Notes under the pieces: model-generated
The model's input: only the letters and a program-made list of their open reading frames with translations
Database searches by the model: none
Told to the model about the DNA's origin: nothing
Origin: Gordonia jinghuaiqii
GTDB lineage: Bacteria > Actinomycetota > Actinomycetes > Mycobacteriales > Mycobacteriaceae
Length of the DNA: 64,000 bases
Assembly: GCF_014041935.1 (NCBI RefSeq)
Contig: NZ_CP059491.1
Coordinates: 4,650,001 to 4,714,000 of the forward strand
Reading direction: 5' to 3'
Shown here: in pieces, positions 49,393-52,175 of the stretch
Position numbering within the stretch: position 1 is the first letter of the stretch
Layout of the letters: each line of letters begins with the position of its first letter
Position numbers and translations under genes: made by a program

Positions 49393-50471
49393 CGGTCTTC
49401 TCCTTCCAGAATGGACAGAACAGTCTCCGCGGTCCCGGGCGCGAGCACGATGCCGTTGCGGCCGTGTCCGGTCGCGACCACCGTCCGCGCGTCGACGCGT
49501 CTCACGACGGGCAGTCCGTCGGCCGTGCAGGGTCGCAGACCGGCGGCGACCTCGGTCAGCTCGTAGGTGCGCAGACCGGGCATGACCTCGATCGCGTCAG
49601 CCAGCAGGTCGGCGACGCCACCCGCCTGGGGTTGCCGGTCCGCACTCCCCTCGGGTTCGTATTGTGTTGCGCCGACCACGATTCCGTCGTTCCGGGGTAC
49701 CAGGTAGACCGCTCGGCCGTGCAGCCGCGCGCGGATGACGTGCTCGGGCGGCGGCACCGACCACCGGGTTCGGCGAAGTCGCAGGATCTCTCCCTTGGCC
49801 GCGTGCAGACGGGCGTCGGGCCACAGCGCGGGGGTCCCGAGGCCGGCCGCGAGCAGGACCTGGGTGTCGGGGCCGGCGAGGGCGTCGAGCTCGGCGCGGG
49901 AGTCGACACGGGCGTCGACCAGCTGCACCCCGGCCGCGGTGGCCGCCGACCGCAGGGTGCTCAGGAGCCGCCGGTTGTCGACCGACCACTCCCCCGCGGC
50001 TCGGTAACCCCCGACGAGACGCGAGCTCAACGACGGTTCGAGGGCGCGGATGTCGCGGGCGGTGACGGCCTCGAGCGTGGCGTCGGTCTGCGGCCGGCGT
50101 GCCCAGACGAAGTCCGCGAGATGCCGGAGGTATTCGGCGTCTGCCGCGGCTGCCGCGACGAACAGCGAATCCGTCGCCGTCACGACGCCGGGATCGCCGA
50201 GACGTGTGATCAGTGCCGGCCAGCGGCGGACCGAGTCCACCGACAGCGCGAGCGCCGCCTCCTCGCCGGGATGTCCCTCCCCGAGGGAACCGAGCATGCC
50301 CCCGGCGACCCACGACGCGCGCTCGGCGGCACCGGCGTCGAGCACGCGGACCTGCCAGCCGGCGTCGGCCGCGACGAGTGCGCAGGTCAGCCCGATGATT
50401 CCGCCGCCGACGACGATCAGGCCGCGGCCGGTAGAGCTGCCGACGGCAGGACGACGGTCGGGATGGCTCAC
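49389..50471 (-). CDS. thiO: Glycine oxidase
   Basis: A 360-residue FAD enzyme of the DAO family that turns glycine into iminoglycine for ThiG. The dinucleotide motif is [19 protein letters not shown] (about residues 20-38), the central region includes [11 protein letters not shown], and the C-terminal FAD clamp is [21 protein letters not shown] 50471 follows a TPP riboswitch. The RBS, GGAAGG about 9 nt upstream, lies in the riboswitch 3' end, so TPP can block translation directly. Confidence 0.95.
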
Positions 50472-50480
50472 GTGGAATCA

Positions 50481-50568
50481 CCTTCCTTCGCCGGAATGAC
50501 CCGGATCAGGTTCGACGGTCAGCGGAGGGGTCCCGCACTCTCAGCCCGGCCGACCCGGGCTCCCGTGT
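50481..50568 (-). promoter_or_regulatory. TPP (THI-box) riboswitch controlling thiO-thiS-thiG
   Basis: Read on the minus strand, the conserved THI-box pieces appear in order: a P1/P2 strand GGGTCGGCC, the CTGAGAG core (538-544 of the 50-kb block), GACC, GAACCTGATC, the GGGTCATTCCGG bulge region and the closing GCGAAGGAAGG. The 3' end overlaps the thiO RBS. TPP binding would therefore repress translation initiation, and possibly transcription. A -10-like TAGGGT lies just upstream, at 50586-50581. Confidence 0.95.
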
Positions 50569-50610
50569 GTTCGTACGATCACCCTACCTCCCGTCCGTGC
50601 GGCGGGCGGC

Positions 50611-51347: not shown

Positions 51348-51423
51348 AAACCGCCCCTGGAAACCACCCCGGTCGGGTGGACCGGACACATATCGTCGTC
51401 GACGCCCCTCCTGAGGGCGGTTT
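51348..51423 (+). terminator. Nested inverted repeats after thiE
   Basis: AAACCGCCC (51348-51356) pairs with GGGCGGTTT (51415-51423). Inside lies a compact hairpin, CCACCC/GGGTGG (51364-51380). The outer pair begins 2 nt after the thiE stop and ends in TTT. This probably ends thiE transcription and insulates the downstream leader. Confidence 0.5.
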
Positions 51424-51474
51424 ACGGGGCCAGTTTTCGGCCGGGGCGGTCGGCGAGGGCGGTGCGGAAGTCGT

Positions 51475-51503
51475 TTGCCTGCGTTCGAGGCCGGGTCTAA
51501 GCT
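51475..51503 (+). promoter_or_regulatory. Promoter of the attenuator leader and LeuA-domain gene
   Basis: TTGCCT (51475-51480) and TAAGCT (51498-51503) are separated by an ideal 17 bp. The leader peptide ATG begins 10 bp after the -10, so the transcript would be almost leaderless. Confidence 0.6.
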
Positions 51504-51512
51504 GGACCGATC

Positions 51513-51560
51513 ATGTCGTACATCTCGAGCGCACTCGTAGCCCGCCGCAGCGGGGTCTGA
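51513..51560 (+). CDS. 15-residue leader peptide
   Basis: The short frame reads MSYISSALVARRSGV and then TGA. Its last five codons and stop lie on the 5' strand of the first of two competing hairpins (51545-51555), the geometry of a ribosome-sensing attenuator. Candidate sensed codons lie upstream of that strand: Ile ATC, Leu CTC, Val GTA. The peptide shows no run of one amino acid, so which residue is sensed is uncertain. Confidence 0.6.
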   Translation: MSYISSALVARRSGV

Positions 51561-51589
51561 ATCTGACCGACCCCCCGCTGCGGGTCGGT
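51545..51589 (+). promoter_or_regulatory. Attenuator: two mutually exclusive hairpins
   Basis: Hairpin A pairs CCGCAGCGGGG (51545-51555) with CCCCGCTGCGG (51573-51583), 11 perfect base pairs. Hairpin B pairs ACCGACCC (51566-51573) with GGGTCGGT (51582-51589), 8 perfect base pairs. They share 51573-51583, so only one can form. A ribosome at the leader stop covers the 5' strand of A, letting B form; early stalling frees it, so A forms instead. B is followed by a pyrimidine-rich stretch (TGCGCTCTCTC) but no T-run. Confidence 0.65.
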
Positions 51590-51638
51590 TGCGCTCTCTC
51601 GTCGGTCATCCTCTCTTCGACCGGAATCGACTCACGAG

Positions 51639-52175
51639 ATGCACACACGTCCTCAGTCCTCCCACTCCTGTTCGTGCGATGAGCACCGTTCACGGAATGA
51701 CGTCCGCGCCCAGCCCGCGAGCGACACCTTCGCCGCTCGCTTCGGCGGCCCGCTCCCGACGGGATTGCGCGAGGAGACCACCGGCATGACCTGGCAATCG
51801 TTCACCGACGCATACGCGTCGAGCGGCACGATCCGGCTGGGTTCGTGGTCGGTCGAACGGTGCAGGCAGGACCTGGTCGAATGCCGGGCGACCCTCGCGG
51901 TCGCCGACCGCATCATCTCGATGTCGGCCGTCGCAGCGGGCCCGGTCGGCGCGATGACGTCGATCCTGCACGGCATCGGCGCACCGGTGCAGATCGTCCG
52001 CCTGCACCAACGTGAGGTCGACGGCCTGATCACCACATTCCTGCTCTGCGAAAACGACGGCCGCCAGGCGTGGGCGATCGGCGAGGGCACGAGCGGCGAC
52101 GAGGCGAATGTCCACGCACTCATCGCCGGAGCCAACCGGCTCGACGCCGGCCGCGTCAGCTCATCTGCGCGCTGA
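51639..52175 (+). CDS. Stand-alone LeuA-type allosteric (LeuA_dimer-like) domain protein
   Basis: A 178-residue protein without the TIM-barrel catalytic domain of 2-isopropylmalate synthase. Residues ~40-175 follow the C-terminal leucine-binding regulatory domain pattern: GPVGAMTSILHGIGAPVQIV, a central strand VDGLITTFLLCENDG, and AWAIGEGTSGDEANVHALIAG then ANRL. A conserved-looking lead-in is FAARFGGPLPTGLREE. Only the ATG at 51639 lies in frame upstream of it. The attenuator-like leader 50 nt upstream fits control by amino-acid supply. It interrupts the thiE/mutT3 neighbourhood seen in M. tuberculosis. Function is unknown; a regulatory subunit or amino-acid sensor is possible. Confidence 0.68.
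   Translation: MHTRPQSSHSCSCDEHRSRNDVRAQPASDTFAARFGGPLPTGLREETTGMTWQSFTDAYASSGTIRLGSWSVERCRQDLVECRATLAVADRIISMSAVAAGPVGAMTSILHGIGAPVQIVRLHQREVDGLITTFLLCENDGRQAWAIGEGTSGDEANVHALIAGANRLDAGRVSSSAR

Follow-up and report, generated by a model that had tools for sequence, protein, structure and literature searches.

Organization of the locus

The window analysed here is a stretch of 64,000 nucleotides from Gordonia jinghuaiqii (NZ_CP059491.1, positions 4,650,001 to 4,714,000), whose genome measures 5.18 Mb. Within this stretch a plus-strand gene encodes a small protein that resembles the allosteric domain of LeuA standing alone. Between a pair of promoter-like boxes and the start of this gene lie a short translatable frame and a series of RNA arms that can pair in mutually exclusive ways (Table 1). 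The initial annotation interpreted the region as an amino acid attenuator, with a promoter, a leader peptide and two exclusive hairpins placed ahead of a gene for an amino acid-binding-type domain.

The promoter-like boxes are present in the sequence where that annotation put them, and direct reading gives the 17-base spacer between TTGCCT and TAAGCT that it reported. A scan of 51400-51800 with a strict sigma-70 consensus found no promoter. A TANNNT box is found 6-10 bases 5′ of the leader start codon in all 64 aligned leaders, a position that suggests a near-leaderless transcript beginning at or just before the leader ATG. The gene at 51639 lacks a clear Shine-Dalgarno sequence. On the minus strand, Rfam identifies a TPP riboswitch (RF00059) at 50465-50576 with 57.6 bits, upstream of a minus-strand gene opposite thiE which we take to be thiO-like.

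Table 1. Features of the leader and of the gene behind it; positions are those of the window.
Feature	Position	Strand	Basis or remark
-35-like hexamer TTGCCT	51475..51480	+	sequence; TTGCC in 16/24 Gordonia rows
-10-like hexamer TAAGCT	51498..51503	+	9 bases before leader ATG; TANNNT in 64/64 rows
Leader peptide ORF MSYISSALVARRSGV*	51513..51560	+	open frame in 64/64 rows (63 distinct); shuffled control 69/3,200
Helix P0, 5′ arm (leader codons 5-7)	51527..51533	+	fold; own vs swapped partners, 36/5000 as low
Hairpin A, 5′ arm CCGCAGCGGGG	51545..51555	+	99.3% of cells paired in A8, 5 pairs changed on both sides
Shifted form of A, inner 5′ arm GGGGTC	51552..51557	+	pairs with 51569-51574; -24.6 vs -24.3 kcal/mol for A
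Pseudoknot helix, 5′ arm (within loop of A, overlaps 5′ arm of B)	51564..51571	+	4 pairs changed on both sides in A8
Hairpin B, 5′ arm ACCGACCC	51566..51573	+	traps at least 4 pseudoknot-arm bases in 22/22 representatives
Hairpin A, 3′ arm CCCCGCTGCGG (common to B)	51573..51583	+	sequence; covariation
Hairpin B, 3′ arm GGGTCGGT	51582..51589	+	sequence
Helix P0, 3′ arm	51590..51596	+	fold; own vs swapped pairing
Outer start-masking helix, 5′ arm	51597..51602	+	pairs with 51634-51639 in minimum-energy folds; prediction for the window
Pseudoknot helix, 3′ arm (51602-51607 double as 5′ arm of hairpin C)	51601..51608	+	comparative
Hairpin C, 3′ arm	51619..51624	+	ends 14 bases before ATG; 5′ arm is 51602-51607
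ACGAGA, running into the ATG	51634..51639	+	pairs with 51597-51602 in the predicted fold
Stand-alone LeuA allosteric-domain-like protein, 178 aa	51639..52175	+	fold and profile comparison

A stand-alone relative of the LeuA allosteric domain

The protein is predicted to have the fold of the LeuA allosteric domain, a view that rests on a Foldseek search with the predicted structure and on profile comparison. The AlphaFold2 model (mean pLDDT 86, pTM 0.78) contains two strand-strand-strand-helix units. Its eight best PDB matches are LeuA chains of Mycobacterium tuberculosis (1sr9 and 3fig), followed by the regulatory domain of LiCMS; the best match has an E value of 5.8e-10 and a TM score of 0.69 over 156 columns, which probably take in part of the linker. 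Comparison of profiles with four LeuA ends gives E 8.6e-14. These two lines agree with the initial annotation that the gene consists of an amino acid-binding-type domain alone, here of the LeuA kind. Matches to the fold of the dsRNA-binding domain (E 5.8e-4 and worse, TM near 0.2) were judged meaningless and give no sign of RNA binding.

Compared with the known LeuA allosteric domain (PF08502; 1sr9, 3fig), with which it has the fold in common, the protein differs in standing alone, in scoring below the Pfam cut-off and in an altered loop motif. PF08502 (LeuA_dimer) reaches 15.0 bits against a gathering cut-off of 24.9, Pfam and NCBIfam give no match to the protein at 0.001, and a sequence profile of 23 Gordonia proteins finds no PDB chain at the same threshold. 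In the protein the LeuA motif LDYxEHALxxGGDA appears in a shorter, altered form, which leaves no ground for taking leucine binding for granted. A homologue search that started from the 168-aa mycobacterial copy returned 1,408 proteins. Among the best 120 of these 1,408, two carry PF08502, five are named homocitrate synthase and most others are hypothetical or nameless; the copies called homocitrate synthase are just about 160-180 aa long, too short for a catalytic domain. The likely role of the stand-alone protein is to tune LeuA or to sense one of the branched-chain amino acids.

Distribution of the gene and its leader

The gene and its leader recur together well beyond the window. A protein-alignment scan yielded 32 named loci, 30 from Gordonia and two from Mycolicibacter, and an orthologue of the gene is encoded in each of the 24 genomes sampled from the genus. 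The Gordonia set comprises 25 loci including the window's own; one is cut by a contig end, and the 24 that are readable upstream all contain a leader with an almost invariant core. In one of them (L010) the orthologue is frameshifted after its 43rd codon behind an intact leader, which is either real or a sequencing error.

At a broader scale, the profile of 23 Gordonia proteins has matches in 118 of 397 genomes of the order. When these were sorted by hand, a stand-alone copy was found in 74 of 80 genomes of the same family; one of the remaining six matches through LeuA alone and five have no match. No stand-alone copy was found at E 0.001 in 317 genomes of other families, where the 43 matching genomes do so through frames of at least 591 aa, that is, through LeuA itself. 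Thus a conserved LeuA regulatory domain without its enzyme is present in most of the sampled family.

A covariance model (R1) was built from 37 leaders of 37 loci, all of them preceding stand-alone genes. Among the matches listed, R1 detects the leader before 66 of the 74 stand-alone genes, at -32 to 118 bases upstream of the matched part. The model itself incorporates the leaders of 24 of these 74 genomes; in the other 50 it finds 43, again among the matches listed. All eight stand-alone genes that have no leader among the matches listed belong to a single genus, g22. Two of these eight genomes (G267 and G374) have weaker R1 matches, and the leader in G267 (L085; R1 E 2.7e-7) is heavily changed with arms that are still complementary. 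In g22 the stand-alone gene is retained and the leader is either rewritten (MQTNILKRVAKATNPGGGRQD*, L085) or absent among the matches listed.

Genomic context points the same way. The thiE gene lies within about 1.5 kb of the gene in 24 of 27 loci of the genus, compared with one of 24 loci of other genera; leader and gene thus remain a pair where the neighbour differs. Rfam recognizes no family at its gathering score in the leader, and a lax search of 51400-51800 returned nothing below E 0.47. Nine loci of leuA and its relatives likewise matched no leader family in Rfam, the TPP riboswitch alone being found.

The leader peptide

The 15-codon leader is as the initial annotation described it, opening at ATG 51513 and closing at TGA 51558-51560. 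The conserved leader peptide to which that annotation attached weight was looked for in the aligned rows and found in all of them (Table 1), with ATG as start codon in 37 rows and GTG in 27. For the control, the 49 bases from -60 to -11 were shuffled, and the frame stayed open in the small fraction of the 3,200 trials given in the table. In all 64 rows (63 distinct) the frame enters or crosses the 5′ arm of hairpin A, and in 59 rows it stops 13 bases past the start of that arm. Judged by eye in the Gordonia alignment, insertions and deletions between the start codon and arm A come in whole multiples of three bases; the exception is the clade of L017, L018 and L024, which has one extra base and stops early at a TAG. 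Early-ending leader peptides occur in these three loci and in L077 (LVTSP*, LVASP*, LVFRP*), with the stop three bases inside arm A.

Two codons stand out just upstream of this arm. A Val codon, GTA, occurs 8-17 bases 5′ of arm A in all 64 rows, and a Leu codon lies no more than 20 bases 5′ of it (-20 to -6) in 49. In the window these are Leu8 (CTC, 51534-51536) and Val9 (GTA, 51537-51539). GTA is a rare codon, accounting for six of 299 Val codons across eight regions of the window that are presumed to be coding. Within Gordonia the Leu codon preceding GTA varies between CTC, CTT and CTG, and GTA is constant. The earlier remark that the leader has no run of one codon holds: the window leader contains a single Leu, and some relatives carry two or three. 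Of the sensed residues then considered, Ile falls out, and Val and Leu are retained by the codon counts. The sequences thus point to Leu or Val as the sensed amino acid; GTA may instead be conserved for pairing rather than for sensing.

Alternative folds of the leader RNA

Both perfect hairpins of the initial annotation are present at the expected positions, with 11 of 11 pairs in A and 8 of 8 in B on direct reading, and they exclude each other through 51573-51583. The leader also has a pseudoknot helix, a helix P0, a hairpin C and a shifted form of A, all absent from that annotation.

The strongest comparative evidence concerns A together with the pseudoknot. It was assessed in 67 leaders, namely 43 of the 64 stand-alone rows and 24 of the 30 leuA loci, with near-duplicates and one leuA locus without a match omitted by hand. 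In this set 95.0% of cells are paired, and nine pairs and 66 cells are changed on both sides; shuffles average 5.0 pairs and 27.6 cells, with 1 and 0 of 500 as high, and slid versions give at most 3 pairs and 14 cells. Two pairs supply 25 and 26 of the 66 cells; their changes mostly separate the leuA branch from the stand-alone one, so that they count few events. In the 37 stand-alone leaders 94.7% of cells are paired, and changes on both sides affect six pairs and 16 cells (2.7 pairs and 5.1 cells in shuffles; 1 and 0 of 500 as high); the 64 rows give 95.9% with six pairs and 17 cells. Hairpin A, and not the pseudoknot, guided the fitting of alignments A6 and A8. Of the 65 cells with letters at the outermost pair of the pseudoknot in the 67-leader alignment, 48 show no pairing. 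When own partners were compared with swapped partners in 22 dissimilar leaders, 7 of 5000 permutations were as low for A, 8 for the pseudoknot and 36 for P0. The initial annotation made its attenuator depend on covariation, which is seen across genera for A and the pseudoknot; inside Gordonia (24 rows) no pair of either helix is changed on both sides, and ten of the eleven A pairs are invariant.

The remaining helices are conserved to different degrees. In the 24 Gordonia rows hairpin C is paired in 93.1% of cells, hairpin B in 81.2% and helix P0 in just 58.5%, its register differing between clades. In several representatives B gains no stability over shuffled bases, with a z above -1 in five of 22. 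Hairpin C stands before the start codon and competes with the pseudoknot for 51602-51607. By eye, 21 of 22 representative folds have the 3′ arm of the pseudoknot paired with bases that reach as far as the start codon or lie at it; the exception is L082, whose fold past the pseudoknot arm is not hairpin C. Shine-Dalgarno-like stretches are paired in the 3′ side of C in L081 (GGAAG), L088 (GAGGA) and L085 (AAAGGA). Pairing between leader and gene start, CUCGU with ACGAG, is present in 67.5% of cells of the 24 Gordonia rows.

In the shifted form of A the outer seven pairs of A are retained, and GGGGUC pairs with GACCCC; this inner helix is complete in 58 of 64 stand-alone rows and in 22 of 24 leuA rows. 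Because the shifted form occupies the final three bases of the pseudoknot arm, it is incompatible with a complete pseudoknot helix; it could represent an intermediate or a further, third state. The predicted free energy of the 131-nt leader is -56.4 kcal/mol, compared with -43.4 (sd 4.1) for shuffles, one of 200 being as good. This minimum-energy fold combines P0 with the pairing of 51552-51557 to 51569-51574 and contains neither A nor B as the initial annotation drew them.

Comparison thus supports two alternative folds, as far as sequences can tell. One would consist of hairpin A with its loop segment 51564-51571 paired to 51601-51608 as a pseudoknot. In the other, B would trap 51564-51571, leaving 51602-51607 to pair with 51619-51624 as hairpin C, which would mask the gene start and may extend to the ATG. 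We infer that A with the pseudoknot is the open state and B with C the closed one.

Relation to the LEU element of leuA

A known counterpart of this arrangement is the LEU element before actinobacterial leuA, described as a leader with a run of Leu codons, a pseudoknot, an alternative hairpin and a base stem between the Leu codons and the Shine-Dalgarno sequence (Seliverstov et al., 2005; PMC1262725). The genome of the window has one LeuA_dimer match, in full-length leuA, and the leader of this leuA (MQRALLLGCRGGV* from the inner ATG; L033/L041, G000:C1:484713-484816, minus strand) has the same layout as the leader before 51639. Its pseudoknot pairs GACCGGC with GCCGGTC, and the published description fits it by eye. 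R1, built exclusively from leaders of stand-alone genes, finds this leader with E 4.1e-10 in a search of the whole genome and detects 29 of 30 leuA leaders in fetched upstream regions. On this sequence evidence the leader before 51639 is homologous to the LEU element before leuA. The two share a leader peptide, a conserved pseudoknot, an exclusive alternative hairpin and homology by covariance model; that the pseudoknot of the window corresponds arm by arm to the published one appears probable.

There are also differences. The LEU element is located upstream of leuA, whereas the element of the window precedes a stand-alone gene for a LeuA regulatory domain. A run of Leu codons is replaced by one Leu and an invariant Val GTA. 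The base stem of LEU involves the Shine-Dalgarno sequence, whereas the base helix of the window pairs with the stretch after hairpin B and less clearly with a Shine-Dalgarno sequence. The leader-gene pair looks like an uncharacterised copy of the switch before leuA that recurs in Gordonia, mycobacteria and their relatives. Ribosome profiling of M. abscessus has revealed upstream ORFs before leuA and ilvB, as stated in passages of the 2016 uORF paper; the gene studied here is not mentioned in the passages checked of that paper or of the 2015 paper on leaderless transcripts. The listings and passages retrieved from the open-access literature contain no description of the pair or of the protein.

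How the LEU element works was left open in 2005, because mutants of leuA did not fit classical attenuation (PMC1262725). Mutations in the Streptomyces coelicolor leuA leader are reported not to have behaved as in classical attenuation (Craster, 1999, as cited in PMC1262725). A second copy of LEU, with another target, another codon set and a clear layout of pseudoknot and start masking, makes the mechanism directly testable.

Mode of control

The initial annotation proposed that the position of the ribosome on the leader chooses between A and B to attenuate transcription. The translated leader and the competing hairpins with covariation are supported; transcription attenuation is not. A scan of 51400-51800 found no terminator-like site, and the longest T-run between hairpin B and the pseudoknot arm is at most 3 in 61 of 64 rows, which argues against an RNA ending near 51590 and makes translational control the better reading. 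Our preferred interpretation, held with slightly better than even confidence, is that a LEU-type leader controls translation of the 51639 gene and is opened by Leu or Val starvation through A and the pseudoknot. Transcription would begin at the leader ATG or immediately upstream of it, and a ribosome translating the leader would select one of the two folds. A ribosome waiting at Leu8 or Val9 would leave most of the 5′ arm of A free and would break P0, so that the start opens. A ribosome reaching the leader stop would cover the 5′ arm of A, allowing C to form and the start to close. A shortage of charged Leu- or Val-tRNA would thus switch on production of the protein. Several observations weigh against this reading: the shifted form of A, which is conserved and matches A in stability, the lack of a clear Shine-Dalgarno sequence at the gene, the invariance of A and the pseudoknot inside Gordonia, the incomplete pairing of P0 and of CUCGU with ACGAG, the deviating fold of L082 and the behaviour of the S. 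coelicolor leuA mutants.

That starvation opens the gene, rather than closing it, is held with modest confidence. In a simple ribosome scan, codons 2 to 4 give the shifted form of A, Leu8 or Val9 give B, and the stop gives neither. If the ribosome is taken to occlude 14 bases beyond the first base of the A site, the best fold with a ribosome at Leu8 is B instead of A. The gene start is masked at all five ribosome positions tried with a folding program that forms no pseudoknots. The ribosome footprint from the A site to the front edge is smaller than this 14-base occlusion, and with the smaller footprint nine pairs of A stay available when the ribosome is at Leu8. The fold at each ribosome position therefore turns on the occlusion, and the sign of the response depends on about three bases.

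The other readings differ in what the folds are taken to do. One is a protein-bound element: a regulator would bind to the pseudoknot, and the leader peptide would matter less. Seliverstov and colleagues favoured a protein-bound element for leuA from the mutants and the phylogenetic pattern (PMC1262725), and here the core is conserved far beyond coding need. However, the leader frame is open in every row, and the GTA and Leu codons lie immediately upstream of arm A, a place at which a ribosome would make a difference; we consider this explanation unlikely. Classical attenuation, as first proposed, would have B act as a terminator that lacks a U-tract, with A as its antiterminator, and it accounts for the leader, the shared arm and the exclusive hairpins. 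It also has precedents in related organisms: in passages of the respective sources, transcription attenuation by leucine is described for leuA of Corynebacterium glutamicum, for which a leader peptide has been predicted, and ilvB1 of M. tuberculosis is likewise said to have an attenuator. The ilvB leaders of Actinobacteria resemble that of the window in their branched-chain codons and competing hairpins, but their terminators are followed by U-runs (PMC1262725), and neither was found here. The window leader has no run of regulatory codons either, and the conserved pseudoknot arm 3′ of B and hairpin C at the start codon would go unexplained, which makes classical attenuation rather improbable.

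Rho-dependent attenuation would do without a terminator. The translated leader would shield a Rho-loading stretch whose exposure is set by the folds, as proposed for terminator-less mycobacterial cys leaders (PMC1262725), and leader translation is well supported by the open frames. Conservation of A, B, the pseudoknot and C, however, is not required by such a mechanism, and we regard it as quite improbable. A parallel for control of translation is found in the cysteine genes of M. smegmatis, for which translation attenuation is mentioned in print (PMC13236596). The likeness lies in an upstream ORF and a masked downstream start; the window differs in having no single-codon run and in a pseudoknot helix that competes with the masking hairpin. 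A ligand riboswitch was set aside, as the translated frame and the varying yet pairing arms fit an element read by the ribosome better.

Origin and possible role of the pair

Leader and gene probably derive from a duplicated leuA, of which the leader and the regulatory domain were retained and the catalytic domain was lost. A more tentative and rather doubtful extension is that the two form one unit cut from leuA, a free allosteric subunit under branched-chain control that acts in trans on LeuA or on LEU elements; action of a free subunit on LeuA has a model in IlvN/IlvB. If true, this subunit would be the kind of protein partner that was proposed in 2005 for LEU elements (PMC1262725), and it would add, in most of the family, a level of leucine control that has gone unstudied and that some records hide under the name of homocitrate synthase. 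A third R1 match occurs in several genomes; in G243, G110, G362 and G283 it is situated some 1.5 kb upstream of the matched end of a frame as long as LeuA.
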